A stretch of 64,000 bases of DNA from an uncultured Algimonas sp. (GCA_937923575.1 CALDUL010000024.1:1-64000); one strand, 5' to 3'; positions 30,039 to 57,675 are shown, counted from the first letter of the stretch. Numbers and translations are program-made. Notes: generated from the sequence alone by a model not told the origin.

Positions 30039-31099
30039 TCGGCGAAACCTTCAAAAGCCTGTTCGACCGCCCCGCGGAAGCGCGCAGCTTCACGCCAGGT
30101 CGGGTCAATCTGATCGGCGAACATGTCGACTATAATGGCGGGCGGGTGCTGCCGACGGCGTTGTCGCTTGGCGTCGATCTCGCGATTGCCCCGCGCGAGG
30201 ACGGGCGCATTCGGGTTCATTCCGACAAGTTCGACGGCCAGGTGGAGCGGGATCTCTCGGAAACCGCCTCCGACCACTGGTCCGACTATATCGTTGGCAC
30301 GGTCCAACTCGCGCGCGCCGAAGGCTTCGCGCCGGATGGGCTCGACATTGCGGCGGCCACCACCCTGCCCTTCGGCGCCGGCCTTTCGTCGTCCGCGGCG
30401 GTCACAGTCGGCGTGCTGAAGGCCTTGCGAGACCTTTCGGGGTCGGACCACAGCGACACCGATCTGGCCGTGCTCGCCCGACGGGTAGAGAACGACTTCA
30501 TCGGCATGCCCTGCGGGATCATGGACCAGATGGCCGTTGCGATCGCGCGGCCCGGCCAGGCCCTGTCGCTCGACACGGACAGCCTCGCCTTCGATCTGAT
30601 CGACCTGCCGGACACGCACCACATGGCAGTGATCCATTCCGGTGTGCGCCGCCAGCTCAATGAGGGGCGCTACCGCATTCGCAAGGAAGAGTGCGACGCG
30701 GTGAAGACGCATGCAGGCCGCGACGACATCTGCCGGATGAGCGATGCGGAACTCGCGACATGCGAGAGTTTGCCCGCTCCGCTCTTTCGGCGCGCGCGCC
30801 ACTGCGTGACAGAGCATCGCCGTACTCTGAGAGCCGCCGAGGCGCTGAGCCAGTTGGACATGCTCGCTTTCGGCGCGCTGATGAATGCCAGCCACATCTC
30901 TATGCGCGATGATTTCGAGATGTCCGTTCCGGCCGTGGACGCGCTGGTGGCCGACGCGCAAGAGCTCGGCGCGACAGGAGCGCGGCTCACGGGCGGCGGC
31001 TTTGGCGGCTGCATCGTCGCGTGTATCGAGGCAGGAAAGCGGGACAGCTGGCGCGACGCGCTTCTCGCCCGTCACCCCGACGCCTATTGGGTCGCCTGA
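30035..31099 (+). CDS. galK: Galactokinase
   Basis: The 354-residue GHMP kinase makes galactose-1-phosphate from galactose and ATP. It starts with GTG inside the galT stop (GTGA). The galactokinase signature GRVNLIGEHVDYNGGRVLP is complete. The ATP loop reads LPFGAGLSSSAAVTVG and the third GHMP motif GARLTGGGFGGCIVA. MPCGIMDQMA contains the catalytic aspartate region. Together with GH36 and galT this provides cytoplasmic galactose use. The 223-base gap to the next gene shows no obvious terminator. Confidence 0.95.
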   Translation: MIGETFKSLFDRPAEARSFTPGRVNLIGEHVDYNGGRVLPTALSLGVDLAIAPREDGRIRVHSDKFDGQVERDLSETASDHWSDYIVGTVQLARAEGFAPDGLDIAAATTLPFGAGLSSSAAVTVGVLKALRDLSGSDHSDTDLAVLARRVENDFIGMPCGIMDQMAVAIARPGQALSLDTDSLAFDLIDLPDTHHMAVIHSGVRRQLNEGRYRIRKEECDAVKTHAGRDDICRMSDAELATCESLPAPLFRRARHCVTEHRRTLRAAEALSQLDMLAFGALMNASHISMRDDFEMSVPAVDALVADAQELGATGARLTGGGFGGCIVACIEAGKRDSWRDALLARHPDAYWVA

Positions 31100-32994: not shown

Positions 32995-34251
32995 GTGGGC
33001 ATCAACCGAGAGAGAGCGGCCAAGGGCCTCGCCCTGTTCCTGCCCGGCATCTTCCTGCTGGGCTTCAACATCGGCACGGGCAGTATCACGACCATGGCCA
33101 AGGCCGGAGCAGATTACGGCATGAGCCTGCTTTGGACGATCGTGATCTCGTGCGTCTGCACCTATGTCATGATCAATATCTACAGCCGCTACACGCTGGT
33201 GACGGGCGAGACGGCGCTACAGGCGTTCAAGCGCCACATCCATCCGCTGGTCGGTATCTATTTCATCATCGCGCTGACCCTGGGTGTGGCGGGCAGCGTC
33301 ATGGGCGTGATGGGAATTGTCGCGGAGATCAGTTCCGAATGGTCGAAGATGATATTCGACGGCGGCATTGCGCCGATCTGGTTCGCGGCGTTTTTCTCCG
33401 CCCTGGTCTTTCTCATCTTCTGGAACGGCAAGACGCGCGTGTTCGAGCGCAGCCTCGCCGTTATCGTCGCGGTCATGGCGGCGTGTTTCCTGCTCAACTT
33501 CTTTCTGCTCATGCCCCCGCCGGGTGAGCTCGTCCGCGGCCTGATTCCGAGCGTACCGGAGGTAGTGCCCGGCGCCGATAAGAGCCCATGGCTGGTCATT
33601 GCCGGCATGGTCGGAACGACCGTCTTTTCCGGACTGTTCATCATCCGCACGACCTTGGTCAAGGAAGCGGGCTGGACGATGGCGGATGCGGCCGTGCAGC
33701 GCCGGGACGCGCTGTTTGCCGTCGTGATGATGTTCGTCATCAGCGCCGCCGTCATGGCAGCCGCCGCGGGCACGCTGCACACCGAAGGGCTGGGCCTGTC
33801 GCGCGCCTCGCAGATGATCTCCCTATTGGAGCCACTGGCCGGGTCCTTCGCCGTGTCGATCTTTGCCGTTGGAATCATCGCAGCGGGCGTGTCGTCGCAA
33901 TTTCCCAATGTGCTGATGCTGCCTTGGTTGATCTGCGACTACCGTGAGACAGAACGCGAGATGACGCTGCCGCGCTATCGCATCATGGTCTTCCTGATCT
34001 CATTGCTCGGCCTTGTCGTTCCGCTGCTGGGCGCGCGGCCCGTCGCGATTATGGTGATGTCGCAGGCATTTGGCGCGATCATCCTGCCGCTGACCGTTGG
34101 CTGCATTTTCTATCTCACCAATCGCCGAGAGTTGATGGGCGAGCACAGGAACACTCTGCTGGCCAACATCGTCTTGACGCTCATCATGGCCTTCGCGCTC
34201 TTCATGTCCTGGCTCGCCATCAAAGGGCTTCTGCTGGCGCTGGCGGGCTAA
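32995..34251 (+). CDS. Nramp-related transporter lacking canonical metal motifs
   Basis: The protein has about 418 residues and eleven or so membrane segments. The fold resembles Nramp: LPGIFLLGFNIGTGSITTMAKAGADYGMSLLW aligns with the helix 1 region, but the metal-binding DPGN is replaced by NIGTG. In the helix 6 region GTTVFSGLFIIRTTLVKEAG stands where MPHN is expected. Divalent metal transport is therefore doubtful. I start at the GTG at 32995 (MGINRERAAKG), just before the first helix, with GGGGCAGGA upstream; the tracked ATG at 32929 is possible. The AGE epimerase gene begins 6 bases after its stop, so the two are cotranscribed and a sugar or sugar acid is a plausible cargo. Confidence 0.65.
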   Translation: MGINRERAAKGLALFLPGIFLLGFNIGTGSITTMAKAGADYGMSLLWTIVISCVCTYVMINIYSRYTLVTGETALQAFKRHIHPLVGIYFIIALTLGVAGSVMGVMGIVAEISSEWSKMIFDGGIAPIWFAAFFSALVFLIFWNGKTRVFERSLAVIVAVMAACFLLNFFLLMPPPGELVRGLIPSVPEVVPGADKSPWLVIAGMVGTTVFSGLFIIRTTLVKEAGWTMADAAVQRRDALFAVVMMFVISAAVMAAAAGTLHTEGLGLSRASQMISLLEPLAGSFAVSIFAVGIIAAGVSSQFPNVLMLPWLICDYRETEREMTLPRYRIMVFLISLLGLVVPLLGARPVAIMVMSQAFGAIILPLTVGCIFYLTNRRELMGEHRNTLLANIVLTLIMAFALFMSWLAIKGLLLALAG

Positions 34252-34257
34252 TTCTAC

Positions 34258-35457
34258 GTGTCGAAGACCTACCCCGATTTCGAGAGTCCAGCGTTTCTAG
34301 AGGACCACATCCAGGACACGCTCGCCTTCTACGCGCCTCGGATCATCGCGCCGGACGGCGGATTTTACGGCTGCTTCTTGGACGACGGCACATGCTATGA
34401 TCCAGGTAGCCGTCAGCTTGTCGCATCCGCGCGCTATGTGCTCAACTACGCGACCGCCTATCGGCGCGACGGCGATCCACAACACGGAGCATGGGCGGAA
34501 CGCGGGCTCGCCTTTCTGCAAGACACGCATCGGCAGGAGAACGGCCACTATGCTTGGCTGATCGAGGACGGTGTCATCACGGATCGCCGCGTTATGGCCT
34601 ATGGCCATGCCTTCGTCCTGCTGGCGGCGGCGAGTTGTGTGAAGGCCGGCATTGCGGGGGCGGCGGATGTTCTCGCGCAAGTCCATGCCTTCATCAACCG
34701 CCACTTTTGGGACGAGACCTCCGGCGCCTATTTCGACGAGCGCGACGACACTCTGCAGACGCTCTCTCCCTACCGCGGGCAGAATGCGAATATGCATATA
34801 TGCGAAGCGCTCCTCGCCGCCCATGATGCCACGGACGACGTGGCCTATCTGGACCGCGCGGAAGCACTCGCTCGCAAATTCGCGCTCGAGCTCGCCGCAC
34901 AATCAGGTGGGCTGATCTGGGAGCATTACGACTCAGACTGGAACGTCGACATGGCGTTCAACATCGACAAGCCGAACGACCGCTACAAACCCTGGGGATT
35001 CCAGCCGGGTCACCAGACGGAATGGGCGAAGCTCTTGCTGATCCTGCATCGTGCACGCCCGAACGGTCCATGGCTTGAATGCGCCGCATCGCTCTATGAC
35101 AAGGCGATTCAAATCGGCTGGGACGACGCACATGGCGGGATCGTCTACGGGGTCGCTCCGGACGGCATAGTCTGCGCAGCGGAGAAGTATTTCTGGGTCC
35201 AGTCGGAGAGCTTCGCGGCCGCTTGGCGGCTCTATCTCGCTACAGACGAGCGACGCTACCGCGACGACTATCACCGCATCTGGCGCTGGAGCTGGGATCA
35301 CATGATCGACCACCAATATGGTGCGTGGTTCCGCGTTCGCGCCCGCGACGGCTCCCCCATCGACAACCGAAAATCACCGCTCGGCAAAACCGACTACCAC
35401 ACCATGGGCGCATGCTGGGACGTGTTGTCGGCGTCCGAGATTGCCGCATCAAGGTGA
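34258..35457 (+). CDS. AGE-family epimerase/isomerase (mannose isomerase-like)
   Basis: The 399-residue protein folds as an (alpha/alpha)6 barrel of the N-acylglucosamine 2-epimerase superfamily. It starts with GTG, 6 bases after the transporter stop. Family marks are GGFYGCFLDDG, VMAYGHAFVLLAAA with one catalytic histidine, GQNANMHICEALLAA, and WGFQPGHQTEWAKLLLIL with the second histidine. Relatives interconvert mannose/fructose, GlcNAc/ManNAc or glucose/mannose. There is no signal peptide, so it is cytoplasmic. The last 9 bases overlap the 3' end of the convergent lyase gene. The context of an Nramp-like carrier and uronate genes suggests a sugar released from algal polymers, but the substrate is open. 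Confidence 0.8.
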   Translation: MSKTYPDFESPAFLEDHIQDTLAFYAPRIIAPDGGFYGCFLDDGTCYDPGSRQLVASARYVLNYATAYRRDGDPQHGAWAERGLAFLQDTHRQENGHYAWLIEDGVITDRRVMAYGHAFVLLAAASCVKAGIAGAADVLAQVHAFINRHFWDETSGAYFDERDDTLQTLSPYRGQNANMHICEALLAAHDATDDVAYLDRAEALARKFALELAAQSGGLIWEHYDSDWNVDMAFNIDKPNDRYKPWGFQPGHQTEWAKLLLILHRARPNGPWLECAASLYDKAIQIGWDDAHGGIVYGVAPDGIVCAAEKYFWVQSESFAAAWRLYLATDERRYRDDYHRIWRWSWDHMIDHQYGAWFRVRARDGSPIDNRKSPLGKTDYHTMGACWDVLSASEIAASR

Positions 35458-36720
35458 AGGCTCGCAGCCGTTCGTCAGCAGCATCACGCGATCGTCTAGA
35501 TGTTCGGCCCGCAGCTGCGATAGCGCGTCGTCGAGCGTGGGTGTGCGGCCCGCGCTGCGGCAAAGGTTATCGAAGAGCAGATCGGTGTCGATCGGGCGCC
35601 GGTGTTCATAGGGCCAGTTGTCGAGCCGGCCGATATAGCTGGCTTGGAATTCCAGCGCGTCCGTCAGGCCGCCGTGACGTCCCTTGGCCGGCGCATAGAG
35701 ATCGGGACCTTCGCATCGCGACAGCTCGGCGAGATCGATCAGCCCCCGCAGCGTAAAAGCCGTGTAATGAAAGGATCGCGTGCGCTTGAGCTCGCGCGGC
35801 ATGCGGCCCTTGCGGTCGATCTGGTTGCGGATACGCGTGTCCACGACACCCTTCATCACGATCGGCAGCACGGACTCGTCGCCCGCGAAAGACGCAAACT
35901 GGGCGAGCTGCGCATCGAAATAAATGCCGTGATTGTTCTCGGCCATGCGCTCTTCGCGTCCATTCTCGCTCGTCGCCATCCAGAGCGCATATTGCCCGAA
36001 CCATTGGCGAAGAGCCGTCATGTCGGTTGGGCTCAGCGCACCGGAGCGCTCCAGCAGCCGGGCGGATTCGACGACGGGCACGAGGCGGTAGGTGTCGATA
36101 ATCCCGATGCCGCGGCCGTCCGTGCGGCCCGGGATGGACTGCGCGAAGGTCAGGTTCGGGTTCATGCGCGTGCCCGGCGTGATGAACCAATGGCGGATTA
36201 GCTCGGCCGCCCGCGAGCTGTCGTCCATGCGTCGGTCGAAGAAACCGGACAGCGTCAGCGCCTCCACCGCCTTGGAAAAATCGCCCATGGCCCTTGTGTC
36301 GAACGCATCGGTATTGCGATCCGGATTGGTCTCCCCGTCGCGGCGGATATAGGGCAGGCCGTCCTTGGTTTTGGGATTGGGCCACCAATAGGGGCCGACG
36401 GAATAGTAGTCCCGCTTGTCCCCGCTGGGCGGGGTCTTGGTCTTGTCCGTCACACTCCACGGTCCGAGATCGCGGTAGTGCTCGGCATCGGCGCGCAGGC
36501 GATCCATCGCTGGCTGCAATGGGGCAGGCTGCGATACGTCTGAGCCGGCGATGAGCGCATCGCGTGCGCGCGCCATCTTGCCCTGTTGCCAGATCGACGG
36601 CGCGACGGTCGCGCAATTTTCAGACCGCGCATGGACAGGCGTTGGCGACAGCGCCCCGACAGCGGTCAGCCCGACAGCGGTCAGGACGACCGCCCGCGCG
36701 AGACTGTGTCCGAGCGGCAA
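35449..36720 (-). CDS. Exported polysaccharide lyase, alginate_lyase fold (PL5/PL38-like)
   Basis: The 423-residue protein has a signal peptide (LTAVGALSPTPVHARSENC) and is periplasmic. The alginate_lyase (alpha/alpha) barrel is recognised from YYSVGPYWWPNPKTKDGLPYI, MAENNHGIYFDAQLAQFA (asparagine-asparagine-histidine catalytic motif) and TRSFHYTAFTLRGL. The NNHG form recalls PL38 enzymes, some of which cut glucuronan, more than classical PL5 (NNH followed by aromatic residues). It is the last gene of DUF4861-kduI-lyase on the minus strand, next to unsaturated-glucuronate enzymes and GH105. I therefore favour a glucuronate-containing substrate such as glucuronan or an ulvan-like chain over alginate. 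Confidence 0.7.
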   Translation of the reverse strand: MPLGHSLARAVVLTAVGLTAVGALSPTPVHARSENCATVAPSIWQQGKMARARDALIAGSDVSQPAPLQPAMDRLRADAEHYRDLGPWSVTDKTKTPPSGDKRDYYSVGPYWWPNPKTKDGLPYIRRDGETNPDRNTDAFDTRAMGDFSKAVEALTLSGFFDRRMDDSSRAAELIRHWFITPGTRMNPNLTFAQSIPGRTDGRGIGIIDTYRLVPVVESARLLERSGALSPTDMTALRQWFGQYALWMATSENGREERMAENNHGIYFDAQLAQFASFAGDESVLPIVMKGVVDTRIRNQIDRKGRMPRELKRTRSFHYTAFTLRGLIDLAELSRCEGPDLYAPAKGRHGGLTDALEFQASYIGRLDNWPYEHRRPIDTDLLFDNLCRSAGRTPTLDDALSQLRAEHLDDRVMLLTNGCEPSP

Positions 36721-36753: not shown

Positions 36754-37662
36754 CTAGGACACGTCACCCGGGTTGATGTGGTCCATATCGTCGAAGACTT
36801 GGTTCTCGCCGCCCATCGACCAGATGAACGTGTAGGCCGAAGTTCCGGCGCCGCAGTGCATTGACCAGATTGGCGACAGCGCGACCTCGCCGTTTTTCAG
36901 CACGACTGGACGCATATTGTCCTGCTCGCCCATGAAGTGGAAGACGCGGGCTTCGGGCTCCAGATCAAAATACATGTAGAATTCCGAGCGGCGCTTATGC
37001 GTGTGCGGCGGGAAGGTGTTCCAGACATTGCCCTCTTCCAGGATCGTGAAACCCATCACGATCTGGCAGGTCGTCAGAATGTCGGGATGGATCGGCTGGA
37101 AGATAGTCCGCTTGTTCGACGTCTTGCTGTCGCCCAGCTTCAGCATGTTTGCCTTGGACTTCGGGACGTGGGTGGTCTCGTAGCGCTTGTGCGCCGGATA
37201 GGAGACGAAATAGAATTTGGCTGGATTGTCCGCATTGTCCGAGCGGAACATGATGCCCTTGCTCTCCCGCCCGACATAAAGGCTGTCGAGACGGTCCATC
37301 GCATAGGTGGTCCCGTCGACGTCGATGCTGCCCTTGCCGCCGATGTTGATGATGCCGACTTCGCGGCGCTGCGCGAAATAGTCCGATGCGAGATCCTTGA
37401 AGACCGGCACATCGAGCTCGCGCGTGACAGGCACGGCGGAACCGATGACGCCGCGGTCGATGTCGGAATAGGTCAGGTGAACAACGTCGGGCTGAAACAA
37501 ATTGTCCACGACGAAGGTGTCGCGCAGCTCGCTATTGGTCATCGTCTTGTAGCGGACGATATCGGCGGAGTAGCGGATCTCCATCGTGCTTTCGGGGACG
37601 TCGGCGGATGAGGTCTCCACATCGAGATGGGCGGGACTGTCGAAGCTCTTGTCGGTCATCAT
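36754..37662 (-). CDS. kduI: 5-dehydro-4-deoxy-D-glucuronate isomerase
   Basis: The 302-residue protein is slightly longer than the usual ~278, with an N-terminal extension of about 26 residues before MEIRYSADIVRYKTM, the canonical start region. It isomerises 4-deoxy-L-threo-5-hexosulose uronate (from unsaturated glucuronate or galacturonate) to the KduD substrate. Cupin metal ligands are visible in WNTFPPHTHKRRSEFYMYF (two histidines and a glutamate) and SPIWSMHCGAGTSAYTFIW. YVGRESKGIMF and INIGGKGSIDVDG are further family marks. It is cytoplasmic, 7 bases after DUF4861 and 33 bases before the lyase gene. Confidence 0.94.
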   Translation of the reverse strand: MMTDKSFDSPAHLDVETSSADVPESTMEIRYSADIVRYKTMTNSELRDTFVVDNLFQPDVVHLTYSDIDRGVIGSAVPVTRELDVPVFKDLASDYFAQRREVGIINIGGKGSIDVDGTTYAMDRLDSLYVGRESKGIMFRSDNADNPAKFYFVSYPAHKRYETTHVPKSKANMLKLGDSKTSNKRTIFQPIHPDILTTCQIVMGFTILEEGNVWNTFPPHTHKRRSEFYMYFDLEPEARVFHFMGEQDNMRPVVLKNGEVALSPIWSMHCGAGTSAYTFIWSMGGENQVFDDMDHINPGDVS

Positions 37663-38776: not shown

Positions 38777-39985
38777 ATGATCGCCGGATCGTTCTTAGTT
38801 CTCGCCACGCTGCTCGGCTCGGGCTGCTCGATCGAAACCCAGGACGGCATGCCGGGCACCACTGCATCCGAACGCGCCCTCATGCAGGCGCCGAGCGCAT
38901 CGGAAATCCGCACGATCACTGATGGTGTGGCCGATTGGCAGATCGCGAACTTCGACACTTTTGACGCCTATATCCCGACCTTCCAGCAGCGCACCCGCGA
39001 TGAGAAGACCGGCTGGATCAAGGGCGCCTTCTACAAGGGTCTCGCCGATTGGGCGGAGACGACCGACAGTAAGGAGTATTTCGCCTTCCTCAAGGCCAAG
39101 GCCGAGGAGGTCGACTACGCCTTCGGCCCGCGCGACTACCACGCAGACGATCATGTGGTCGGGCAATATTACATGGTCCTGTATGACCGCTATCAGGACC
39201 CGGCCATGCTGGCCCCTGCCCGCGCTGTCTATGACCGCATCATTGCCAATCCCTCCGAGGTGTCGCTGGTATTCGAGCCCGAAGGCACGGAAGAGGGATA
39301 TTACAAACAATGCCTGAAGCGCTGGTGCTGGGCCGATGCTCTATTCATGTCGCCGCCCGTGCTGACCAAGTTGACCGCCTATACGGGCGATCCAAAATAT
39401 CTCGAATTCTCCGACCGCGAATATTGGGCGACCACTGACTATCTGTTTGACGAGGGCGACGGGCTGTTCCTGCGCGATTCGCGTTTCTTCGACACGCGCG
39501 AGGACAATGGCGAGAAGACCTATTGGTCGCGCGGCAATGGCTGGGTGTTCTCAGGGCTCGCCGATATTCTCGACGATCTGCCCGCGGATCATCCATCTCG
39601 GCCACGTTACGAGGCGCTCTTCACCGACATGGCGCAGGCACTGATCGAGACCCAGTCGGACAACGGCTTCTGGCCCGTCTCTCTCAAAGCCGGTGAACTC
39701 TACCCGGTTGAGGAAAGCTCCGGCACCGCGTTTTTCGTTGCAGGTCTCGCCTGGGGCATTCGCACCGGGCGATTGGACCCGGACACCTATCTGAAGGTCA
39801 CGCTTAAGGGCTGGAACGCCGTGGAGGCCGCCGTGCGCCCGTCTGGCATGATTGGCTATGTGCAGCAGGTCGGCTTCGCGCCGGACAAGGTCTCCGCGGA
39901 CGAGACCCAGTTCTACGGCGCGGGCGCGGTTTTGCTGGCGGGATCCGAGATGTTGAAGCTGGCCGATGCAGGCGGATTGAAATGA
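38777..39985 (+). CDS. GH105 unsaturated glucuronyl/rhamnogalacturonyl hydrolase, lipoprotein
   Basis: I place the start at the ATG at 38777, giving a 402-residue protein with a lipoprotein signal (LATLLGSGCS); the tracked start lies in the operator region. The (alpha/alpha)6 barrel has GH105 marks: WIKGAFYKGLADWAE, DDHVVGQYYMVLYD, RWCWADALFMSPPVLTKL with the catalytic aspartate, YWSRGNGWVFSGLADIL, and ESSGTAFFVAGLAWGI. The enzyme removes the unsaturated uronate from oligosaccharide ends made by polysaccharide lyases. The product feeds KduI. It is the first gene of a plus-strand operon with the TRAP genes, its stop overlapping dctP as ATGA. GH88 is a less likely alternative. Confidence 0.88.
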   Translation: MIAGSFLVLATLLGSGCSIETQDGMPGTTASERALMQAPSASEIRTITDGVADWQIANFDTFDAYIPTFQQRTRDEKTGWIKGAFYKGLADWAETTDSKEYFAFLKAKAEEVDYAFGPRDYHADDHVVGQYYMVLYDRYQDPAMLAPARAVYDRIIANPSEVSLVFEPEGTEEGYYKQCLKRWCWADALFMSPPVLTKLTAYTGDPKYLEFSDREYWATTDYLFDEGDGLFLRDSRFFDTREDNGEKTYWSRGNGWVFSGLADILDDLPADHPSRPRYEALFTDMAQALIETQSDNGFWPVSLKAGELYPVEESSGTAFFVAGLAWGIRTGRLDPDTYLKVTLKGWNAVEAAVRPSGMIGYVQQVGFAPDKVSADETQFYGAGAVLLAGSEMLKLADAGGLK

Positions 39986-40974
39986 TCAGCCGCCGCTCGA
40001 CCCTGGCTGGGCTTGCGGCCCTACCCGCACTTTCCGCCTGCCAGCGCATCGGCGGCGAAGGTCCGGCGACATTAAAGCTGGGCCATACGCTCAACGCAGA
40101 CCATCCGGTGCACAAGGCCATGGTCTATATGGGCGAGCAGTTAATGGAGCTGTCGTCCGGCCTGCTCGGCTTGCAGATCTACCCCAATGGGCAGCTCGGG
40201 TCTGAGCGCCAACTCGTCGAATTGCTACAGATCGGCGCGGTCGCCATGACCAAGGTCAGCACGATCTCCATGGAAGGGTTCAGCCCCTCCATGAAGCTGT
40301 TCTCCATTCCCTATCTGTTTTCCGACTCGGACCATCTCTGGCGCGTTCTTAATAGTGACCTCGGCCGCGAGCTGCTCGACAGCCTCCAGGGCCAGCGCTT
40401 GCAGGGGCTGGGCTATTACGATGCGGGGTCCCGCTCTTTCTATATGACCGACGCGCCGGTGCGCTCGCCCGCCGATCTGGCTGGCCTCAAAGTTCGCGTG
40501 CTGCCGTCGCGCACCTCAATCGAGATGGTCGAGGCGCTGGGCGGCTCGGCCACGCCGATCAGTTGGGGCGAGCTCTACACAGCGCTGCAGCAAGGCGTGG
40601 TCGACGGCGCGGAAAACAACCCGCCATCCTATTACCTGTCGCGTCATTACGAGACGGCGAAATACTACACGCTCGACGAACACACCGCTGTTCCGGACCT
40701 GCTGATCATGAGCCGCCCGGTTTTTGACGCTCTGTCCGACCAGCAGCGCGACTGGGTCAACTCTGCCATGGCCGCATCGGTCACCTATCAGCGCAAGCTC
40801 TGGACCGAAGCGTCGGACGAGGCGCTGGAGGCGGTCGCGGCCGCCGGCGTGGAAATCATCCGCCCGGACAAGCAACCGTTCCGCGACGCCGTCGCCCCGA
40901 TGAAGGCGGCCTTCGCCCAGACGGAGCTCGGCCCGCTGATCCGCCGCGTCGAAGCGCTGGAGGTGGCGCGATGA
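39982..40974 (+). CDS. dctP: TRAP transporter substrate-binding lipoprotein
   Basis: The 330-residue DctP-family protein starts MISRRSTLAGLAALPALSACQ: a twin-arginine-like SRRSTL and a lipobox (LSAC), so it is probably membrane-anchored rather than free in the periplasm. ATLKLGHTLNADHPVHKAM, IYPNGQLGSERQLVE, LAGLKVRVLPSRTSIEM (with the carboxylate-binding arginine) and GELYTALQQGVVDGAENN are family marks. In this setting the ligand is most likely a uronate or unsaturated uronate released by GH105 or the lyase. The start overlaps the GH105 stop, and its own stop overlaps dctQ. Confidence 0.93.
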   Translation: MISRRSTLAGLAALPALSACQRIGGEGPATLKLGHTLNADHPVHKAMVYMGEQLMELSSGLLGLQIYPNGQLGSERQLVELLQIGAVAMTKVSTISMEGFSPSMKLFSIPYLFSDSDHLWRVLNSDLGRELLDSLQGQRLQGLGYYDAGSRSFYMTDAPVRSPADLAGLKVRVLPSRTSIEMVEALGGSATPISWGELYTALQQGVVDGAENNPPSYYLSRHYETAKYYTLDEHTAVPDLLIMSRPVFDALSDQQRDWVNSAMAASVTYQRKLWTEASDEALEAVAAAGVEIIRPDKQPFRDAVAPMKAAFAQTELGPLIRRVEALEVAR

Positions 40975-41552
40975 CTCTCGTCATCCGGACTGTGGATGTC
41001 ACCCTGCGCGTGCTGCTGGTGGTGCTCGCCACCCTCATGGTGCTGACCGTGACCTGGCAGGTGACGTCCCGCTACGTCTTCCGCGCGCCGTCCTCGCTGA
41101 CCGAGGAGATCGCGCGTTTTCAGCTGATTTGGCTCGGCGTACTCGGCGCGGTCTACACATTCCGAAATCGCATGCATGTCGGGATCGACATTCTCATTGG
41201 CGAGATGACGGGCCGTCGGCGCGTGGCGGCCGAGTTGGCGTCGCTGATCAGCTGTCTGCTGTTTGCGGTGCTGATCCTGATCATTGGCGGCGGCAAGCTG
41301 GTCGCGCTGGTCCACGACCTCGACCAGACGTCTGCCGCGCTAGGCGTGCGCATGTCGTGGGTCTATTCCATTATTCCGATCAGCGGCGTGCTCTGGGTGC
41401 TCTACGGGCTCTACTATATCGCCGATCTACTCCGACACGGGCGGCTGCGACTGCCCAGCGAGATAAACGGCGATGCCGTCGCTGGCGACACGCCAAACCG
41501 GGTAGACCCGAAACACAAGGACGTTTCCGATGTCCTTGGAGAGGAAGAGTAA
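40971..41552 (+). CDS. dctQ: TRAP transporter small permease
   Basis: The 193-residue protein has four hydrophobic segments and the DctQ pattern RYVFRAPSSLTEEIARFQLIWLGVLGAVYTFRNRMHVGID. It assists the large permease DctM in importing the DctP ligand with sodium. The C-terminal ~35 residues are a hydrophilic tail. ATGA overlap with dctP and TAATG overlap with dctM show tight coupling. Confidence 0.93.
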   Translation: MTLVIRTVDVTLRVLLVVLATLMVLTVTWQVTSRYVFRAPSSLTEEIARFQLIWLGVLGAVYTFRNRMHVGIDILIGEMTGRRRVAAELASLISCLLFAVLILIIGGGKLVALVHDLDQTSAALGVRMSWVYSIIPISGVLWVLYGLYYIADLLRHGRLRLPSEINGDAVAGDTPNRVDPKHKDVSDVLGEEE

Positions 41553-42847
41553 TGTTGGTCACGGTCCTCGTCCTTCTCGGCGTCTTCTTCGTCCTCGTCA
41601 TGCTCGGCGTGCCAATTGCGGTGTCGATCGCGCTGGCCACACTGTCCACGCTGCTGCTGACCCTGCCTGCGGATGTCGCCATGACGACACTCGCGCAAAG
41701 GCTCGCGGCGGGGCTCGACAGTTTCACTCTGCTCGCCATCCCGTTTTTCGTCATATCGGGCTATCTCATGGGGCGCGGCGGGATTGCGCGGCGACTGATC
41801 GAGGCGGCCAAGTCCCTCGTTGGGACACTGCCCGGCGGGCTGGCGCTGGTGAACACCATTTCATGCATGCTCTTTGGTTCGATTTCGGGCTCCGCCGTCG
41901 CTGCCACGTCCGCCATCGGCACCTTCATGATCCCGACCATGGAAGACGAAGGCTATGAGCGCGAGTTTTCCACTTCGGTCACAATCGCCGGCTCCATCCT
42001 GGGCCTGCTGATCCCGCCGTCCAATGTGTTGATCGTCTATGCCGTTGCGGCCGGATCGGTTTCCATCGCCGCGCTGTTCATGGCGGGCTATGTACCGGGT
42101 CTGCTGGCGGGCACGCTGCTGATGCTGGTCGCGAGCGTCTATTCCCACCGCAAGGGCTACCCGCGTTCGGCGCGCATTCCGCTGCGGGCTGCACTGCGCA
42201 AGCTGGCGGATGCCGCGCCGTCCATCGCAATGGTGCTGATCGTCGTCGGCGGGATTATCGCGGGCATCTTCACCGCGACCGAAGCGTCCGCCATTGCCGT
42301 CATCTACGCGCTGGTGCTGAGCCTCATTTACCGCGAGATCAAGATCGCCGACCTGCCGTCCATCCTGCTGAAGTCGATCGAGACGACGGCCATGGTGCTG
42401 CTGCTGATCGGCGTGTCCACCGGCATGGCGTGGGTGCTGGCGTATGGGAACATCCCGCAGGCGATCAGCGACGGTATGTTGAGTATCTCAGACAATCCCT
42501 TTGTCGTCCTGCTACTGATCAATCTGATCCTGCTGATCGTCGGCGCGTTTCTCGACATCACGCCGGCCATTTTAATCTTCACGCCGATCTTTCTGCCCGT
42601 CGCGATGGAGCTGGGCATGACGCCGTTGCACTTCGGGATCATGCTGGTGCTAAATCTGTCCATCGGGCTGTGCACGCCGCCCGTGGGCTCCGTGCTCTTC
42701 GTAGGCTGTGCGGTGGGCGAGACGACGATCCGCCAGCTGGTGAGGCCTATGCTACTGCTCTACTCCGCGCTGATCGTGGCACTGCTGCTGGTCACCTATA
42801 TTCCCATCCTGAGCGAAGGCCTGCCGCGCGCAGCCGGACTGATCTAG
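41552..42847 (+). CDS. dctM: TRAP transporter large permease
   Basis: The start is the ATG at 41552 inside the dctQ TAA; the longer tracked ORF from 41129 is an artefact of an open frame through dctQ. This gives 431 residues and about twelve membrane segments. DctM hallmarks include VPIAVSIALATLST, SISGSAVAATSAIGTFMIPTMEDEGYERE, LIPPSNVLIVYAVAAGSVSIAALFMAGYVPGLL and LNLSIGLCTPPVGSVLFVG. It forms the ion-coupled transport channel with DctQ. The kduD gene follows 8 bases after its stop. Confidence 0.95.
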   Translation: MLVTVLVLLGVFFVLVMLGVPIAVSIALATLSTLLLTLPADVAMTTLAQRLAAGLDSFTLLAIPFFVISGYLMGRGGIARRLIEAAKSLVGTLPGGLALVNTISCMLFGSISGSAVAATSAIGTFMIPTMEDEGYEREFSTSVTIAGSILGLLIPPSNVLIVYAVAAGSVSIAALFMAGYVPGLLAGTLLMLVASVYSHRKGYPRSARIPLRAALRKLADAAPSIAMVLIVVGGIIAGIFTATEASAIAVIYALVLSLIYREIKIADLPSILLKSIETTAMVLLLIGVSTGMAWVLAYGNIPQAISDGMLSISDNPFVVLLLINLILLIVGAFLDITPAILIFTPIFLPVAMELGMTPLHFGIMLVLNLSIGLCTPPVGSVLFVGCAVGETTIRQLVRPMLLLYSALIVALLLVTYIPILSEGLPRAAGLI

Positions 42848-42855
42848 GACCCCAT

Positions 42856-43602
42856 ATGAACATCGACTTCACCGGTAGAACAGCCCTCGTCACGGGGGCC
42901 AGCCGCGGCATCGGCCAGGCCATCGCGAAAGCCCTCGCTGACAGCGGCGCCAATGTCGCCTGCGTTGCCAGCCGTGCGGAGAATGCTGCGAAGACCGTCG
43001 AGGCGATTGGCGCCAAAGCCTATGCGTTGGGCTGCGATCAATCGGATGCGGTCTCGATTGCGGCCTGCGTCGACGCCGCCGTGGAGCGCTCCGGCAGAAT
43101 CGATTTTCTGATCAATAATGCCGGCACGATCCGCCGCGCGCCGGCGCGCGACTTTTCAGATGCTGATTGGGACCATGTCATCGACACCAATCTGTCCGGC
43201 GTCTTTCGCTTCTGCCGCGCGGTCGGCGGGCATATGCTAGATCAGGGTGCAGGCAAGATCGTCAATATTGCCAGCCTGCTGTCCTTCCAGGGCGGCATCA
43301 CCGTGCCCGCCTATGCCGCGTCCAAGGGCGGCGTCGCGCAGCTGACCAAGGCACTGTCCAATGAGTGGGCGGGCTCCGGCGTGCAGGTCAATGCCATCGC
43401 GCCGGGCTATATCGCGACAGACAATACGGCCGCGCTGCGGGCGGACGCCGACCGCAATGCTGCTATTCTCGCGCGCATTCCGGCAGGGCGCTGGGGCAAG
43501 CCTGAGGACATTGCGGGCACAGCCGTGTTCCTGTGCTCTTCGGCGTCGGACTATGTGAACGGCCATGTGCTGACCGTCGATGGCGGTTGGATGGGCCGCT
43601 AG
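42856..43602 (+). CDS. kduD: 2-dehydro-3-deoxy-D-gluconate 5-dehydrogenase (SDR)
   Basis: The 248-residue classical SDR starts at ATG 42856; the tracked frame from 42430 runs through dctM in another frame. The NAD motif reads VTGASRGIGQAIA. NNAGTIRRAPARDFSDADWDHV is typical of KduD, YAASKGG holds the catalytic Y-x-x-x-K and NAIAPGYIATDNTAALRAD follows. KduD reduces the KduI product to 2-keto-3-deoxygluconate. A close alternative is a DEH reductase of alginate metabolism, also SDR type, but pairing with kduI in divergent operons favours KduD. Confidence 0.85.
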   Translation: MNIDFTGRTALVTGASRGIGQAIAKALADSGANVACVASRAENAAKTVEAIGAKAYALGCDQSDAVSIAACVDAAVERSGRIDFLINNAGTIRRAPARDFSDADWDHVIDTNLSGVFRFCRAVGGHMLDQGAGKIVNIASLLSFQGGITVPAYAASKGGVAQLTKALSNEWAGSGVQVNAIAPGYIATDNTAALRADADRNAAILARIPAGRWGKPEDIAGTAVFLCSSASDYVNGHVLTVDGGWMGR

Positions 43603-44485: not shown

Positions 44486-44563
44486 AATGCTCTAAGCCAT
44501 AGGTGTTAAGGGGGCAATGTGCAGCACCATGGCCGAACGAACGGGAAGGTCATGCGGGGGACG

Positions 44564-46036
44564 ATGAGCAACATGGCGGCTACAGACGCGGGGGCTTTGC
44601 ACCCCGACCGGTTATTCCCAAGCGACCCGGCTGTGCGGGAAACGGCACGTTCGATCTATGCCGAGATTGCTGGGCTGCCGATCATCAGCCCGCACGGCCA
44701 CACCGACCCTTCGTGGTTCGCCGAGAACGCGCCTTTCCCGAACCCGAGCGAGCTGCTGATCATCCCGGATCACTATGTGCTGCGCATGCTCTACAGCCAG
44801 GGCGTGAGCCTGGAGAGCCTGGGTGTGCCGCCCCGTGACGGGCGCGACTATGAGCGTGATCCGCGCGCGGTCTGGCGGAGCTTTGCGGAGCATTTCCATC
44901 TCTTCGCGGGCACACCGTCGCGCATCTGGTGGGACCATGTGTTGGGGGAAGTGTTCGGGGCGCCCGTCCCGCTCTCGCCTGAGACTGCGGACGAGAGCTA
45001 CGACATCATCGACGCCGCGCTGAAAACCGAAGCCTTCCGCCCGCGCGCTCTGCTCGACCGCTTCGACATCGCGCTGATCGCGACGACCGAAGGCGCGCTG
45101 GACGATCTGAAACATCACCGCGCGCTGGAAGGGACAGACTACGCGCACCGCGTCATCACCACTTTCCGGCCCGATGACGTCATCGACGCCGACAAGCCGG
45201 AGTTCGCCCATAATCTCGCAAAGCTGGCCGAGCTGACGGAACAGGATACGAACGATTGGGAAGGCTATCTCGAAGCCTTGCGCATCCGGCGCGCCTATTT
45301 CCGCGATGTCGGGCGCGCGACTGCGACGGATCACGGCCACCCGTCCCCGCGCACAGCCGACCTGCCCGCGGATGAATGCCAGCGCCTGCTGAGCCTCTGC
45401 CTGTCGGGCGAGGCCATGCCGGAGCAGACGGATCTCTTCCGCGCGCAGATGCTGACCGAAATGGCGGGCATGAGCGTGGAGGACGGCATGACCCTGCAGA
45501 TCCACCCGGGCTCTTGCCGCAATCACAATCCATCGCTGCATGCCGCCTTCGGGGCAGACAAGGGCGCGGATATTCCATTGCAGTCGGAGTACACGCTGAA
45601 CCTGCAACCGCTGCTCGCCAAATATGGCAATAATCCCGATCTGACAGTCATCCTGTTTACGCTAGACGAGAGTGTCTACTCGCGTGAGCTCGCCACGCTG
45701 GCCGGGCACTACCCTGCCCTGACGCTGGGTCCGCCATGGTGGTTCCACGACAGCCCCAACGGCATGATGCGCTTTCGCGATCAGGTCACCGAGACGGCCG
45801 GCTTCTACAATACTGCCGGGTTTAACGACGACACCCGCGCGTTCCTCTCCATCCCCGCGCGTCATGACGTGGCCCGCCGCATGGACGCGGTCTTCCTTGC
45901 CGAACTCGTGACGCAACATCGCATCACGCGCAGCGAAGCCAGCGACATCGCCCGCGCGCTGACCGTCGATCTCGCCCGCAAGGCCTACAGGCTAGACGAG
46001 CTGCTGGCCCAAGACAGCAAGGAGCGCGCGGCGTGA
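44564..46036 (+). CDS. uxaC: Glucuronate isomerase
   Basis: The protein has about 490 residues. It converts D-glucuronate to D-fructuronate (or galacturonate to tagaturonate) in the cytoplasm. It belongs to the amidohydrolase-fold UxaC family: LPIISPHGHTDPSWFA carries the metal-binding H-x-H, followed by LIIPDHYVLRMLYSQGV, RALLDRFDIALIATTEGALDDL and MTLQIHPGSCRNHN. I start at MSNMAATDAGALHPDRLF (44564). A GTG at 44519, the tracked start, and an ATG at 44552 are both possible, and the former has a good AAGGGGG site. It is coupled to uxuB by GTGA overlap. Confidence 0.93.
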   Translation: MSNMAATDAGALHPDRLFPSDPAVRETARSIYAEIAGLPIISPHGHTDPSWFAENAPFPNPSELLIIPDHYVLRMLYSQGVSLESLGVPPRDGRDYERDPRAVWRSFAEHFHLFAGTPSRIWWDHVLGEVFGAPVPLSPETADESYDIIDAALKTEAFRPRALLDRFDIALIATTEGALDDLKHHRALEGTDYAHRVITTFRPDDVIDADKPEFAHNLAKLAELTEQDTNDWEGYLEALRIRRAYFRDVGRATATDHGHPSPRTADLPADECQRLLSLCLSGEAMPEQTDLFRAQMLTEMAGMSVEDGMTLQIHPGSCRNHNPSLHAAFGADKGADIPLQSEYTLNLQPLLAKYGNNPDLTVILFTLDESVYSRELATLAGHYPALTLGPPWWFHDSPNGMMRFRDQVTETAGFYNTAGFNDDTRAFLSIPARHDVARRMDAVFLAELVTQHRITRSEASDIARALTVDLARKAYRLDELLAQDSKERAA

Positions 46037-47469
46037 CACGACTGAGCGCGGCGACACTCGACAAGGCCAAGATACCAGCCCCCAGTTATGACCGGGACGC
46101 CGCCGGAATTGGCATTGTGCATTTTGGCCCGGGCGCATTCACCCGAGCCCATCAGGCCGTCTATACCGAGGACGCCATAGCGCGTTCCGGGGGCGATTGG
46201 GCCATCTGTGCCGTGTCGCTCAATAGCCCGCGCGCGAAGAAACAGCTCCGCCCGCAGGACGGGCTCTACACCCTCGCCATACGTGATCAGAAAGCGTCCT
46301 ATCGCGTCATCGGCGCGGTGCGTGAGGTCTTATTCGCAGGCGACGACCGCATCGATGTCATGTCCCGCCTGCGCGCGCCCAGCACGAAGTTCATCACGCT
46401 GACCATCACCGAAAAAGGCTACGCGCTGGACGGGGCGGGCCAGCTTGATCTCGGCAATGAGATGATCCGCGCGGACATCGCAGATCCGTCGAAGCCGCGC
46501 TCCGCCATGGGCTTCATTCTGCTGGCCGCAGAGCAGCGCCTGATCAGCGACATTCCGCCTTTCACCGTCATGTCCTGCGACAATCTGCCAGACAATGGTC
46601 ACCGACTGCGGGACGCTTGCGTGGCGCTGGCCAAGGCTCAGGGCAAGGCTACCCTCGCCCGGCACATCCGGCGAGCCGTCCGCTTCCCGCGCACCATGGT
46701 CGACGCCATCACGCCCGCGACCGACGAGGTTGTGTTGGACGCTGTCTCATACGCGCTGGGCCTGCGCGACGAAGCCGCCGTCCAGCGGGAGAGCTTCGCG
46801 CAATGGGTTATCGAGGACGACCTGCCTGAGGAACGTCCGGACTGGGTCGGCGCAGGCGCGACAATCACCGATGACATCCAGGGTTTCGAGAACAGTAAAT
46901 TGCGCATCCTCAACGGAGCCCATTCGACCTTGACCTATCTGGGGCTGCTGGCAGGTCGCACATCCGTCGTCGAAGCCGCAGGCGACCCTCTGCTGCGCGG
47001 TTTTGTCGACGGCCTGATCCGGGAAGAGACCATTCCTTCCTTCGACGCGCCGGAGGGGCTGTCGCCGACGCTCTATTGGGACGTGACCCTCGCGCGGTTC
47101 GACAATCCGCATATCATTCACAAGCTAGAGCAAATCAGCCATGACGGCTCGCAGAAAATCCCGGCGCGCATTCTGCCTGTCATCGCGGCGCATGGTTCCG
47201 ACGCCAAGCGCGCCGCCTTTGTCGCGGCCGGGTGGATCGAATGGACGCGGCAACGGCGCTGCAGCGATCAGCCGCCGACCGATGGCTGGCTGTCGTCCAA
47301 CACCGACGCCTTGCCCGATCCCTCGCTTTCGCCAAAAGACTATGCGCGCGCCATGCTCGGCGTGCGCGCGGTCTTCCCGGCTGGCTTGCCCGTTAAGCTC
47401 ATAGTCGGGAATGCCGAGGCCATTGCGGAACAGGGCGTCATCAAGGCAATCAAATCGCTGAAACTTTAG
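46033..47469 (+). CDS. uxuB: Fructuronate reductase-type mannitol dehydrogenase family protein
   Basis: The 478-residue long-chain polyol dehydrogenase starts with GTG within the uxaC stop. The N-terminal [25 protein letters not shown] and later [23 protein letters not shown] are family marks. Fructuronate reductase makes D-mannonate from D-fructuronate with NADH. Position between uxaC and a mannonate dehydratase gene strongly favours this over mannitol or arabinitol dehydrogenase. Cytoplasmic. Confidence 0.88.
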
Positions 47470-47537: not shown

Positions 47538-48746
47538 ATGAAGATCACAAACATTAAGACCATCGTCACCTGCCCCGACAGGAACTTTGTGACGGTCAAG
47601 GTGATGACCGACGAAGGCATATACGGCATTGGCGACGCGACACTGAACGGCCGAGAGTTGTCGGTCGCTTCCTATATCGACGATCATATTGCGCCGTCGA
47701 TCATGGGCCATGATGCGGGCCGGATCGAGGACATCTGGCAATATCTCTATCGCGGTTGCTACTGGCGGCGTGGCGCGGTGACGATGACCGCCATCGCCGC
47801 CATCGACACGGCGCTATGGGACATCAAGGCCAAGGCGGCGAACATGCCGCTCTACCAATTGTTGGGTGGCAAGTCGCGCGACGGCGTCATGGTATATGGT
47901 CACGCCAATGGCGGCGACATCGAAGAGACGCTGGACGAGGTCGGCAAGTATCTGGATCTCGGCTACAAGGCCGTGCGCGCCCAGACCGGTATTCCGGGGC
48001 TGAGCTCGACCTACGGCGTCTCCAAGGACAAGATGTATTACGAGCCCGCCGACGGCAATCTGCCGACGGAAAATGTCTGGAGCACGTCCAAATACATCAA
48101 CCACATCCCTAAGCTGTTTGATCGCGTGCGCGACAAATACGGCATGGACTTCCACCTGCTCCACGACGCCCACCACCGTTTGACGCCGCAGGAAGCCGCC
48201 AAGGTCGGCAAGAGCCTGGAGGAGTTCAACCTGTTCTGGCTGGAGGACGCCGTCCCGGCCGAGAACCAGGAAGCCTTCCGCATGATCCGTCAGCACACGA
48301 CCACGCCGCTGGCCGTGGGCGAGGTGTTCAACTCGATCTGGGACTGCAAGACGCTGATAGAGGAAGGGCTGATCGACTACATCCGTTCCACCGTCGTCCA
48401 CGCGGGCGGCATTTCGCACCTGAAGAAGATCTTCGAATTCGCCGCCATGCACCATGTGCGGTCCGGCAGTCACGGCGCGACGGACCTGTCGCCCGTCTGC
48501 ATGGGCGCAGCACTGCATCTGGACACGGCGATCTACAATTTCGGCATCCAGGAATATATGCGCCATACGGAGAAGACCGACGAGGTCTTCCCGCATGCCT
48601 ACACCTTCAAGGACGGCCTGCTCTATCCGGGCGAAGCACCAGGCCACGGCGTCGACATCGACGAAGAACTCGCTGCCAAATATCCTTATAAGCGGGCCTA
48701 CCTGCCCGTGAACCGTCTCGAAGACGGCTCCATGTTCAACTGGTAG
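47538..48746 (+). CDS. manD: D-mannonate dehydratase, enolase superfamily
   Basis: The 402-residue protein has the length of characterised ManD proteins. It dehydrates D-mannonate to 2-keto-3-deoxy-D-gluconate and is unrelated to UxuA. The barrel carries RAQTGIPGL with its disordered-loop region, then [13 protein letters not shown] (first metal-ligand strand), [21 protein letters not shown] and [29 protein letters not shown] follows near the end. The operon order uxaC-uxuB-manD completes the saturated glucuronate route. The start ATG lies 68 bases after uxuB and the GH2 gene follows 8 bases after its stop. Confidence 0.93.
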
Positions 48747-55494: not shown

Positions 55495-57675
55495 CTATTC
55501 GTCCGCAGACAGGATCGTGTGCGATCCAGTCCAGCTCACAAATCCGTCTGCTGTCTCGACCGTGTGGTCGCCATTCTGTTCCGCGAGGCCGACCGAGATC
55601 GTGTCGCCGGACTTCAGGACCAATGTCACAACATCTGCGGTGCGCCCCTTGAAGTGCTCCACTCGCGCGATCTGGCTTCGACTGGCCAGAGTGTATTCCT
55701 GGATCGGGTTGTATTCACCATGTGGTTCGAAGACCGTCGCGGCAGCGAAGCGCGTCGCGCGCGGACTCCGCAGAATCAGCGCTGGCTCGCGGCGAAGGTT
55801 CGTATCCGGATCGTTTGCGCCAAGTTCCGCGAGCAGTATTTGTGTTCCCTCCGGCACGGCACTGGTCAGGGTGTAGAAGCGACGATCCAGCAAGATCGTC
55901 GTCTGCGCCTGTCCGTCAATGGCATCGGCCTGACCGACCTTCCAGAGATATTGATAGCCATTGTCGTCGCCTAGCGGCGCGCGCGTGGTCGTATCGGCTT
56001 TGATCTCGTAATTCGTTTCGATCAGCTGCCCATTGTAGTGGAAGGGCAAGTCGAAGTCGCGAAGATCGTCGGCCGATGCGCTCTCTCCGATCATAACATC
56101 GATGACGACCGGCGCTTCGAGCGCCTCGTGGCGCAGCAGTGCTACCCGGCGCGTCAGCGATACGCCGGGATAGGCATTCGCGATTCCAGCAGTCGTCGCG
56201 CTCAGATTGTCTTCGGTCACGAACGGTCCGATATAGGGAGCGTGGTTCTCGCCCTCGCGCCAGTCGCCACCGAAATGCGAGCTGCGGTCCACGACCAGCG
56301 CGTTATGCGCGATGGTCTGCTTGGCATAGGCGTTATTCTCGCGCAGATAGTGGCCGCCATATTTGGCCTCGATATTGAGGAAGCGCGCGGCGCCATAGTC
56401 GCGCAGCACCTCATAGCCGCGGTCGAACACCAGCAGTCCCAGCTTGTCGAAATGGCCGTGCCCCAGACCCATGGCAGTATTCTTCGCCACCACGGCCATT
56501 CCTTTGGGATCATCCGACGCGCGGAGGATATCGAGTGCGCCGCGGTCGCCGTTCGAGCCGTCGACCAGTCGCATGGAGCGATAGCCGAAGGGCTTGGCCT
56601 TGCCCGCCTCGATGGCGGCAGACACGGCGCGGCCTGCTGCGGTCGGTGCGACCTTGCCCTGCTCCTGCGCGACCGAGAGCAGCGTGTCGTCGCCTGTCAG
56701 ATCATAGGCGATGGCGACACCGTGCAGCAGCTCGGTCGTGGCGATGCCCTTGTCCTTGATGGCGTCGTTGATCGGAAAGAATAGCCCGGCGTAGTTCTGG
56801 TGGATAGTCGAGTATATCGCCTTCTTCAGAATGCCGTCGCGCGCCTCGAAGATTTTCCGCTCCGGCTCGTTCTCCTGAATGGCTTGGGCGAAGAGCACGA
56901 AAGGCATCAGGGCGTAGCGCTGATAATAGGGGCCTTCATTGTAATAGCCGTCGGGCGAAAACAGCACATCCATCTGGCGGAGAAAGCCGCCCGTCCCGGA
57001 TCGGTCGAGGCCCAGCAAGGCTTTCTCGACATAGTCCGGCTCATCCAGCGCATAGCCGGTCAGACCGACAGCCGCCGTCGCCCAAGTGCCGTGATTGTGA
57101 ATCTTGTCGAAGGTCTGCGGCTGGCCTTCGGAGAGGAACTCCACGATGGGATGGAAGAAATTGTCTTCCAGCCGGGCGCGGGTGTCACCGTCGAGATCGT
57201 CGCGGAAGAGCTCATAGCCCTGCGCGGCGTGGACGAGGAACCACGCTTCGTTGAGGCTCTGCCAGAACAGGCGGCCGGGCGTCTGCTCCTTCTTCTTCGG
57301 ATGCTCCCCGAGGGTGGGGTACATCGTAGCGTAGGCGTCGAGCAGGCGAACGGCGTGGTCGCGGTAGCCCGCGTCATTCGTCGCCTCATAGAGCAGGCCG
57401 GACTCAAAAATCGCGATGGCGTTTCGCTTATGCTGCTCATGGGTGTAGCCGCCGCCCGCATCCGCCGGGACTGGCACGGCCAGTGGCTCGCCAATCTGGG
57501 CATCGATGCGCGTACGCATGGCATTGAACGCGGCGTCGTAGAGCGCGCCATCAGCGGATGAGGCAACCGAGCCCGCGGATGTCGCCGACGGCGCAGCCAC
57601 ATCCGACGGACTGCAGGCCGCCAGAGCGGAAGCCGCAATCAGTGCTGTGAGTGCCGATGTTGTCCAGTTTTTCAC
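55495..57675 (-). CDS. PL17 exolytic oligoalginate lyase, lipoprotein
   Basis: The 726-residue protein has a lipoprotein signal (IAASALAACSPS). The N-terminal (alpha/alpha) toroid carries FDKIHNHGTWATAAVG and the catalytic region DGYYNEGPYYQRYALMPFV. The C-terminal heparinase II/III-like beta domain begins near AMGLGHGHFDKLGLLVFDRG. This architecture and these motifs match PL17 enzymes such as Saccharophagus Alg17C, which release unsaturated monomer from alginate oligomers at chain ends. Acting in the periplasm it feeds the adjacent MFS carrier. It begins one base from the PL6 stop. Confidence 0.92.
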   Translation of the reverse strand: MKNWTTSALTALIAASALAACSPSDVAAPSATSAGSVASSADGALYDAAFNAMRTRIDAQIGEPLAVPVPADAGGGYTHEQHKRNAIAIFESGLLYEATNDAGYRDHAVRLLDAYATMYPTLGEHPKKKEQTPGRLFWQSLNEAWFLVHAAQGYELFRDDLDGDTRARLEDNFFHPIVEFLSEGQPQTFDKIHNHGTWATAAVGLTGYALDEPDYVEKALLGLDRSGTGGFLRQMDVLFSPDGYYNEGPYYQRYALMPFVLFAQAIQENEPERKIFEARDGILKKAIYSTIHQNYAGLFFPINDAIKDKGIATTELLHGVAIAYDLTGDDTLLSVAQEQGKVAPTAAGRAVSAAIEAGKAKPFGYRSMRLVDGSNGDRGALDILRASDDPKGMAVVAKNTAMGLGHGHFDKLGLLVFDRGYEVLRDYGAARFLNIEAKYGGHYLRENNAYAKQTIAHNALVVDRSSHFGGDWREGENHAPYIGPFVTEDNLSATTAGIANAYPGVSLTRRVALLRHEALEAPVVIDVMIGESASADDLRDFDLPFHYNGQLIETNYEIKADTTTRAPLGDDNGYQYLWKVGQADAIDGQAQTTILLDRRFYTLTSAVPEGTQILLAELGANDPDTNLRREPALILRSPRATRFAAATVFEPHGEYNPIQEYTLASRSQIARVEHFKGRTADVVTLVLKSGDTISVGLAEQNGDHTVETADGFVSWTGSHTILSADE

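Follow-up and report, generated by a model that had tools for sequence, protein, structure and literature searches.

The sequence analysed here, hereafter the window, is a 64 000-nucleotide stretch from an uncultured Algimonas sp. It contains a gene for an Nramp-fold carrier (start GTG at 32995, stop TAA at 34249–34251), followed after only six bases (34252–34257) by an AGE-family isomerase gene (start GTG at 34258, stop codon ending at 35457). An earlier note on this DNA had described both this spacing and uronate genes beside the carrier, and both descriptions are accurate: genes for KduI, KduD, UxaC, a UxuB-like protein, ManD, GH88 and alginate lyases span 35.4–48.7 kb and beyond (Table 1). 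The PL17-like lyase clusters with carrier-locus proteins of the Hepar_II_III_C plus Alginate_lyase type. The TRAP transporter probably serves a separate uptake, with unsaturated uronates as its presumed substrate. A DUF4861 protein (37670–38629) is encoded within the uronate gene region, and galactose genes, judged from sequence alone to be GalT-like and galactokinase-like, occupy 28944–31099, just ahead of the carrier region.

Table 1. Features of the carrier gene and of the surrounding genes in the window
Feature	Position	Strand	Basis
Nramp-fold carrier gene, predicted D-mannuronate importer (~418 aa)	32995..34251	+	PF01566 202 bits; orthologs; AlphaFold
TM1 unwound segment N23-I-G-T-G-S28, in place of metal motif DPGN	33067..33084	+	Alignment to BfraNramp/EleNRMT/DraNramp; helix break 24–25
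TM6 unwound segment F209-S-G-L212, in place of MPHN	33625..33636	+	Alignment; helix break 208–209
R216 in TM6b, candidate carboxylate anchor	33646..33648	+	Invariant in 81/81 orthologs
AGE-family isomerase; predicted to act on D-mannuronate/D-fructuronate, or alternatively on D-mannose	34258..35457	+	PF07221 333 bits
Alginate-lyase family protein (PF05426)	35449..36720	-	242 bits
KduI, 5-dehydro-4-deoxy-D-glucuronate isomerase	36754..37662	-	NCBIfam 384 bits (cut-off 250)
TRAP transporter genes: DctP solute-binding protein (39982–40974), then membrane subunits	39982..42847	+	DctP PF03480 266 bits; membrane subunits from ORFs only
KduD-type SDR	42853..43602	+	NCBIfam kduD 345.5 bits (cut-off 338.85)
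UxaC, glucuronate isomerase	44519..46036	+	NCBIfam 524 bits (cut-off 387)
UxuB-like D-mannonate/D-fructuronate oxidoreductase (Mannitol_dh family)	46033..47469	+	TEKGY and SQK signatures
ManD D-mannonate dehydratase	47538..48746	+	NCBIfam ManD NF043051 734 bits (cut-off 550)
PL17-like lyase, probable exolytic oligoalginate lyase	55495..57675	-	PF05426 match 56815–57417

The carrier scores far above the curated cut-off of the PF01566 profile (29.8 bits), which places it in the Nramp fold superfamily, and its closest solved sequences are BfraNramp (69.5 bits), EleNRMT (56 bits) and DraNramp (50 bits). Structure prediction, one of the checks proposed in the earlier note, returned the Nramp fold (AlphaFold2 with 61 sequences; pLDDT 87.5, pTM 0.87), a LeuT-type architecture with unwound TM1 and TM6 whose helix breaks coincide with the replaced metal motifs. 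Foldseek searches with this model retrieved Nramp structures, mostly with TM-scores of 0.72–0.82, among them entry 10ky, which is BfraNramp, and also the YcsG model 9a52. A scan of the collection yielded 80 carrier orthologs with 66–84% identity, and in the carrier tree all 81 group together as a single clade (SH-aLRT 98), separate from canonical Nramps and from NRMT. The closest relative of this clade, from a record labelled 'E. coli' (L058, 12001–13211; CP054241.1; 52% identity), carries a frameshift; it retains IGTGS and the TM6 Arg and has APA in place of FSG. Genes for CoA-transferase/enoyl-CoA hydratase lie on one side of it and a gene for an FAD-binding protein on the other, and it represents a sister clade with different partners and perhaps another acid substrate. 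A broken homolog (39% identity across its first half, with internal stops) occurs in a genome of the window's family (L021/L028; G078:C100:7509-8348).

The earlier note had claimed that the DPGN motif of TM1 and the MPHN motif of TM6 are replaced, and the alignment bears this out. In register with BfraNramp and DraNramp, DPGN corresponds to G25-T26-G27-S28 and MPHN to F209-S210-G211-L212; the NIGTG quoted previously merely begins two residues before the metal quartet. GTGS is found in all 81 orthologs, the TM3 Glu of canonical Nramps (E134 of DraNramp) is G102 in the carrier and Gly in 81/81, and R216 stands where canonical Nramps have their second TM6 His and EleNRMT has Asn. Except at position 24, the segment N23–S28 is invariant in the 81 orthologs (N23, G25, T26, G27, S28), as are T30, G98, G102, G105, G205, T206, T207, L212, F213, R216, S298, S299, Q300, P302 and N303; F209, S210 and G211 are kept in 79–80 and G95 in 80. 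At none of the metal-ligand positions do the 81 orthologs have Asp, Glu, His or Met, and the alignment with solved Nramps reveals no intact ligands shifted out of register, the misreading against which the earlier note had cautioned. Because the substituted positions are invariant or nearly so across 81 orthologs, the ligand replacement is real and due neither to chance nor to misregister. R216 is the sole charged residue invariant in all orthologs among the TM1, TM3, TM6 and TM8 positions examined, and it is a plausible carboxylate anchor. The helix 3 glycines (G95, G98, G102 and G105) agree with the 'G-motif' of Nramp-related proteins, that is, PF01566 members without metal motifs, as defined for this orphan outgroup in PMC10606218 and PMC12873925; the carrier has neither the TM1 Asp of an NRMT nor a shared branch with EleNRMT. 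On these features it is classed as an Nramp-related (non-canonical SLC11/PF01566) protein without metal ligands.

Could such a protein nevertheless move divalent metals, for example Mn2+/Fe2+ for UxuA or Zn2+ for a cupin isomerase? The fold and family of the carrier would suit this reading, EleNRMT moves Mg2+/Mn2+ despite its missing canonical motif (PMC12873925), and the Nramp-related YcsG is reported to raise cell Mn (PMC10448178). However, EleNRMT retains the TM1 Asp, whereas the carrier combines the loss of all ligand residues with an invariant Arg in TM6b; its neighbours are catabolic genes, and a search for regulatory Rfam elements, manganese riboswitches among them, gave none in the window stretch or in six loci. 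We consider metal transport very improbable.

The orthologs are distributed over Pseudomonadota (Alpha- and Gammaproteobacteria), Bacteroidota, Verrucomicrobiota, Planctomycetota, Lentisphaerota and Kiritimatiellota. The earlier note had leaned on the pairing with AGE and had proposed a phylogeny with a survey of neighbours. In the loci surveyed here AGE adjoins the carrier in only nine of the 80 ortholog loci, all of them in Alphaproteobacteria; it is rejected as a constant partner and is a lineage-specific one, one of several interchangeable isomerase solutions. The constant partner is instead a D-mannonate dehydratase (UxuA or ManD), which no fewer than 76 of the 81 genomes with a carrier possess. 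UxuA lies within ~10 kb of the carrier in 51 of 80 loci and, when adjacent, is mostly less than 50 bases away; where UxuA is not close by (29 loci), a strong UxuA is encoded elsewhere in 18 of the genomes and ManD in six more, two others give weak matches and three give nothing that counts. The first neighbour of the carrier is UxuA, a cupin isomerase, AGE or UxuB in 62 of 81 loci. Clustering of neighbouring ORFs gave a phosphomannose-isomerase-like cupin in 26 loci, SDRs in 30 and, with the window included, UxuB-like Mannitol_dh proteins in 15 and ManD in 10, and alginate lyases of the PL17/PL6/PL7 type occur in 32 of 81 carrier loci.

Some loci have other neighbours. Sulfatases, and not recognised alginate genes, adjoin carriers of Lentisphaerota and Bacteroidales (L115, 1902–5984; L129, 9989–13735), and L115 has in addition a family III CoA-transferase beside the carrier; the clade may have a role for sulfated polymers of uronates as well. 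In several Saprospiria loci a protein without a Pfam match directly precedes the carrier (L088, 9139–10002, 288 aa; L122, 9170–9961, 264 aa). No pxp-type family appears among the annotated neighbour clusters of carrier loci.

The pathway steps encoded around the carrier appear to be carried out by interchangeable, unrelated enzymes: AGE or cupin as isomerase, a UxuB-type protein or SDR as reductase, and UxuA or ManD as dehydratase. AGE and the cupin isomerase occur together in none of the loci and in none of the 50 carrier genomes searched, of which 10 have AGE, seven a strong cupin and 33 neither. An isomerase lies near the UxuB-type reductase in 15 of 15 loci (AGE in six, cupin in eight and UxaC in one, L067). 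Operons of Bacteroidota (e.g. L119 and L135) have the order carrier, cupin, SDR, UxuA, and the SDR of such operons passes the NCBIfam model for D-mannonate oxidoreductase (348–415 bits; cut-off, 281). The ManA-like cupins fall into two subtypes with a mutual identity of about 33% (L110, 8058–9149; L119, 11247–12335; L123, 7297–8397), and may be D-mannuronate isomerases instead of mannose-6-phosphate isomerases. In L116, L117 and L126 (Saprospiria) an SDR lies immediately upstream of the carrier on the same strand, a position that would fit direct reduction of the imported acid but is not evidence for it.

The carrier-linked UxuB-like proteins share TEKGY, and in 14 of 15 cases SQK, with E. coli UxuB and YdfI, and differ in this from mannitol/sorbitol dehydrogenases, which disfavours a mannitol/fructose reading of these neighbours. 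Their UxuB-type assignment rests on these signature residues and not on the Mannitol_dh tree, in which the carrier-linked group is separate from both reference sets and the copy of the window sits on a long branch; the window protein also scores 299 against a cut-off of 603 for fructuronate reductase UxuB (PRK15037).

The earlier note had suggested that the carrier moves sugars or sugar acids and not Mn/Fe. The sugar-acid half of that suggestion fits the constant mannonate dehydratase and the UxuB/YdfI residues; mannose or fructose fits worse, because the constant partner would be superfluous in their route. For import of free D-mannose or D-fructose, with AGE as an ordinary D-mannose isomerase, speaks the closest PDB entry of the AGE protein, 5x32 (429 bits), which we take to be the Marinomonas mediterranea D-mannose isomerase Marme_2490, together with the ManA-like character of the cupin. 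Yet the mannonate oxidoreductase would be as superfluous as UxuA/ManD, and the Mannitol_dh proteins have UxuB rather than mannitol-dehydrogenase residues, so that import of these free sugars is scarcely credible. Against the NCBIfam D-mannose isomerase model NF051846 the AGE protein scores 206 bits, below the cut-off of 600. In sequence comparison the carrier-linked AGE proteins differ from 5x32/3gt5 at many residues, none of which can be assigned to binding of a C6 carboxylate.

Within the family to which the window belongs, 17 of 99 genomes have a carrier ortholog. UxuA or ManD is present in 17/17 of these and in 6/82 of the others (p=1.8e-14, Fisher test, which ignores relatedness). The same holds among genomes with a PF05426 alginate lyase, 16/16 with the carrier against 1/11 without (p=1.3e-6, Fisher, again ignoring relatedness); thus the dehydratase tracks the carrier and not the lyase, and simple hitchhiking with alginate lyases is rejected. 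AGE occurs in nine of the 17 carrier genomes and in none of the 82 carrier-less genomes, and within carrier genomes the UxuB-type reductase accompanies it (9/9 with AGE, 2/8 without; p=0.002 by a Fisher test that takes no account of relatedness). Six genera (g1, g2, g11, g12, g18 and g19) contain both carrier and non-carrier genomes, and in every one of them the carrier genomes more often have the dehydratase. In one genome (G001) the carrier and ManD copies are hundreds of kilobases apart, so the co-occurrence is not solely due to shared transfer of one cassette.

These counts bear on the possibility that the carrier imports DEH, the main lyase product, or unsaturated alginate oligosaccharides. 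Neighbours of the alginate-lyase, KdgF-like, SDR and KdgK types would accord with it. However, DEH catabolism bypasses mannonate, whereas it is mannonate dehydratase that tracks the carrier in alginate-lyase genomes, and a number of the same loci have MFS, SSF or TRAP transporters, so that we hold this substrate to be improbable.

Exolytic lyases free one saturated unit per original non-reducing end of alginate, and the canonical DEH route leaves this end unit unused. Reduction of D-mannuronate at C1 gives D-mannonate, D-mannitol being symmetric, so that a mannonate dehydratase fits a mannuronate route whether or not an isomerase takes part; the second alginate monomer, L-guluronate, is reduced to gluconate, and for it a mannonate dehydratase is superfluous. 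Since the DEH route leaves saturated mannuronate unused and the carrier is linked to mannonate dehydratase, we read the carrier as an importer of D-mannuronate for a side route, a reading to which we give somewhat better than even chances. The imported acid would be the saturated monomer left after exolytic lyases have trimmed the non-reducing ends. It would be converted to D-fructuronate by AGE in the lineage of the window and by the phosphomannose-isomerase-like cupin in others, then to D-mannonate by a UxuB-type or SDR D-mannonate oxidoreductase, and then to 2-keto-3-deoxygluconate (KDG) by UxuA or, in the window, by ManD. Loci without an isomerase gene would reduce D-mannuronate at C1 directly to D-mannonate. 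That isomerases akin to mannose-type enzymes take the place of glucuronate isomerase before fructuronate points to the C2 epimer, D-mannuronate. Transport by this protein, its energy coupling and coupling ion, and the activity of AGE and cupin on mannuronate are predictions of this scheme, as is the role of R216.

The imported compound might instead be another acid from this branch of metabolism: D-mannonate, D-fructuronate or D-glucuronate. UxuA, the most constant partner, would alone suffice for D-mannonate, and many loci have UxuA without an isomerase or UxuB; against this, AGE or cupin isomerases adjoin the carrier with the reductase in the same cluster, both superfluous for D-mannonate, and many carrier loci contain alginate lyases. 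D-glucuronate would require UxaC, which is present in 2/80 loci, and is disfavoured accordingly. Import of one of these acids is, in our judgement, unlikely. Several points nevertheless weigh against D-mannuronate itself. For the 33 of 50 genomes with neither AGE nor a strong cupin isomerase, either a direct reductase must be assumed or D-mannonate is what the carrier really imports; digestion by lyases yields only a little D-mannuronate; a few carriers adjoin sulfatases and not recognised alginate genes; and the nearest solved relative of AGE is a D-mannose isomerase.

For the clade as a whole, which occurs in at least six phyla and mainly in marine bacteria, we put the chances at about even that its members are D-mannuronate importers, the first Nramp-fold sugar-acid transporters as far as we know, that AGE and the phosphomannose-isomerase-like enzymes are independently recruited D-mannuronate isomerases, and that together they form a dedicated salvage of saturated mannuronate ends. 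Proteins of this family are annotated in public records as 'Nramp family divalent metal transporter', a name that would mislabel the protein in a considerable number of seaweed-degrading bacteria if the clade carries a sugar acid. The Nramp family would then gain a second organic-substrate branch next to PxpT, the fate of the saturated mannuronate of alginate would be explained, and the named AGE and ManA-like proteins would be predicted to have D-mannuronate isomerase activity. A metal site turned carboxylate site would also be useful for studying substrate change in LeuT-fold carriers.

Nramp-related proteins without DPGN and MPH are already known, and an organic substrate has already been proposed for one of them, PxpT. 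They are paraphyletic and mostly uncharacterised (PMC12873925), and have been described as an orphan outgroup of SLC11 (PMC10606218). Like the carrier, this 'G-motif' group has the PF01566 fold, lacks DPGN and MPH, and has several invariant helix 3 glycines, but none of the papers found connects it with a mannuronate route; nor was any link between Nramp and mannuronate found in the literature searched, mostly open-access papers. Corynebacterium glutamicum needs PxpT, which belongs to this family too, in order to grow on 5-oxoproline (PMC13274462), and the PxpT homolog YcsG of Bacillus subtilis is reported as a Mn importer (PMC10448178). Both resemble the carrier in being Nramp-family proteins in an operon with catabolic genes for an organic acid, in their case 5-oxoproline, but differ in substrate and partners (pxpABC). 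MumT is reported to be linked to urea genes (PMC5050338).

EleNRMT (7qia), a Mg2+/Mn2+ transporter, has the same fold (TM ~0.8), shares G-T-T in TM6 and also has no canonical metal motif, but it has Asp in TM1 (DAGG) and APW in TM6 and belongs to a separate branch. The canonical BfraNramp and DraNramp, with the same fold and among the nearest solved sequences, retain the DPGN, MPH and TM3 Glu that the carrier has lost. A parallel in setting comes from Alteromonas sp. 76-1: its alginolytic systems, marine alginate loci, include an Nramp gene that the legend of a supplementary figure names 'metal-ion transporter' (PMC6431674), no other function being proposed. In chemistry, a parallel is E. coli uxuAB with the fructuronate transporter GntP, in which the same conversion of fructuronate through mannonate to KDG is linked to an uptake gene; there, however, the transporter is a different one, and fructuronate is supplied by UxaC instead of AGE or a cupin.
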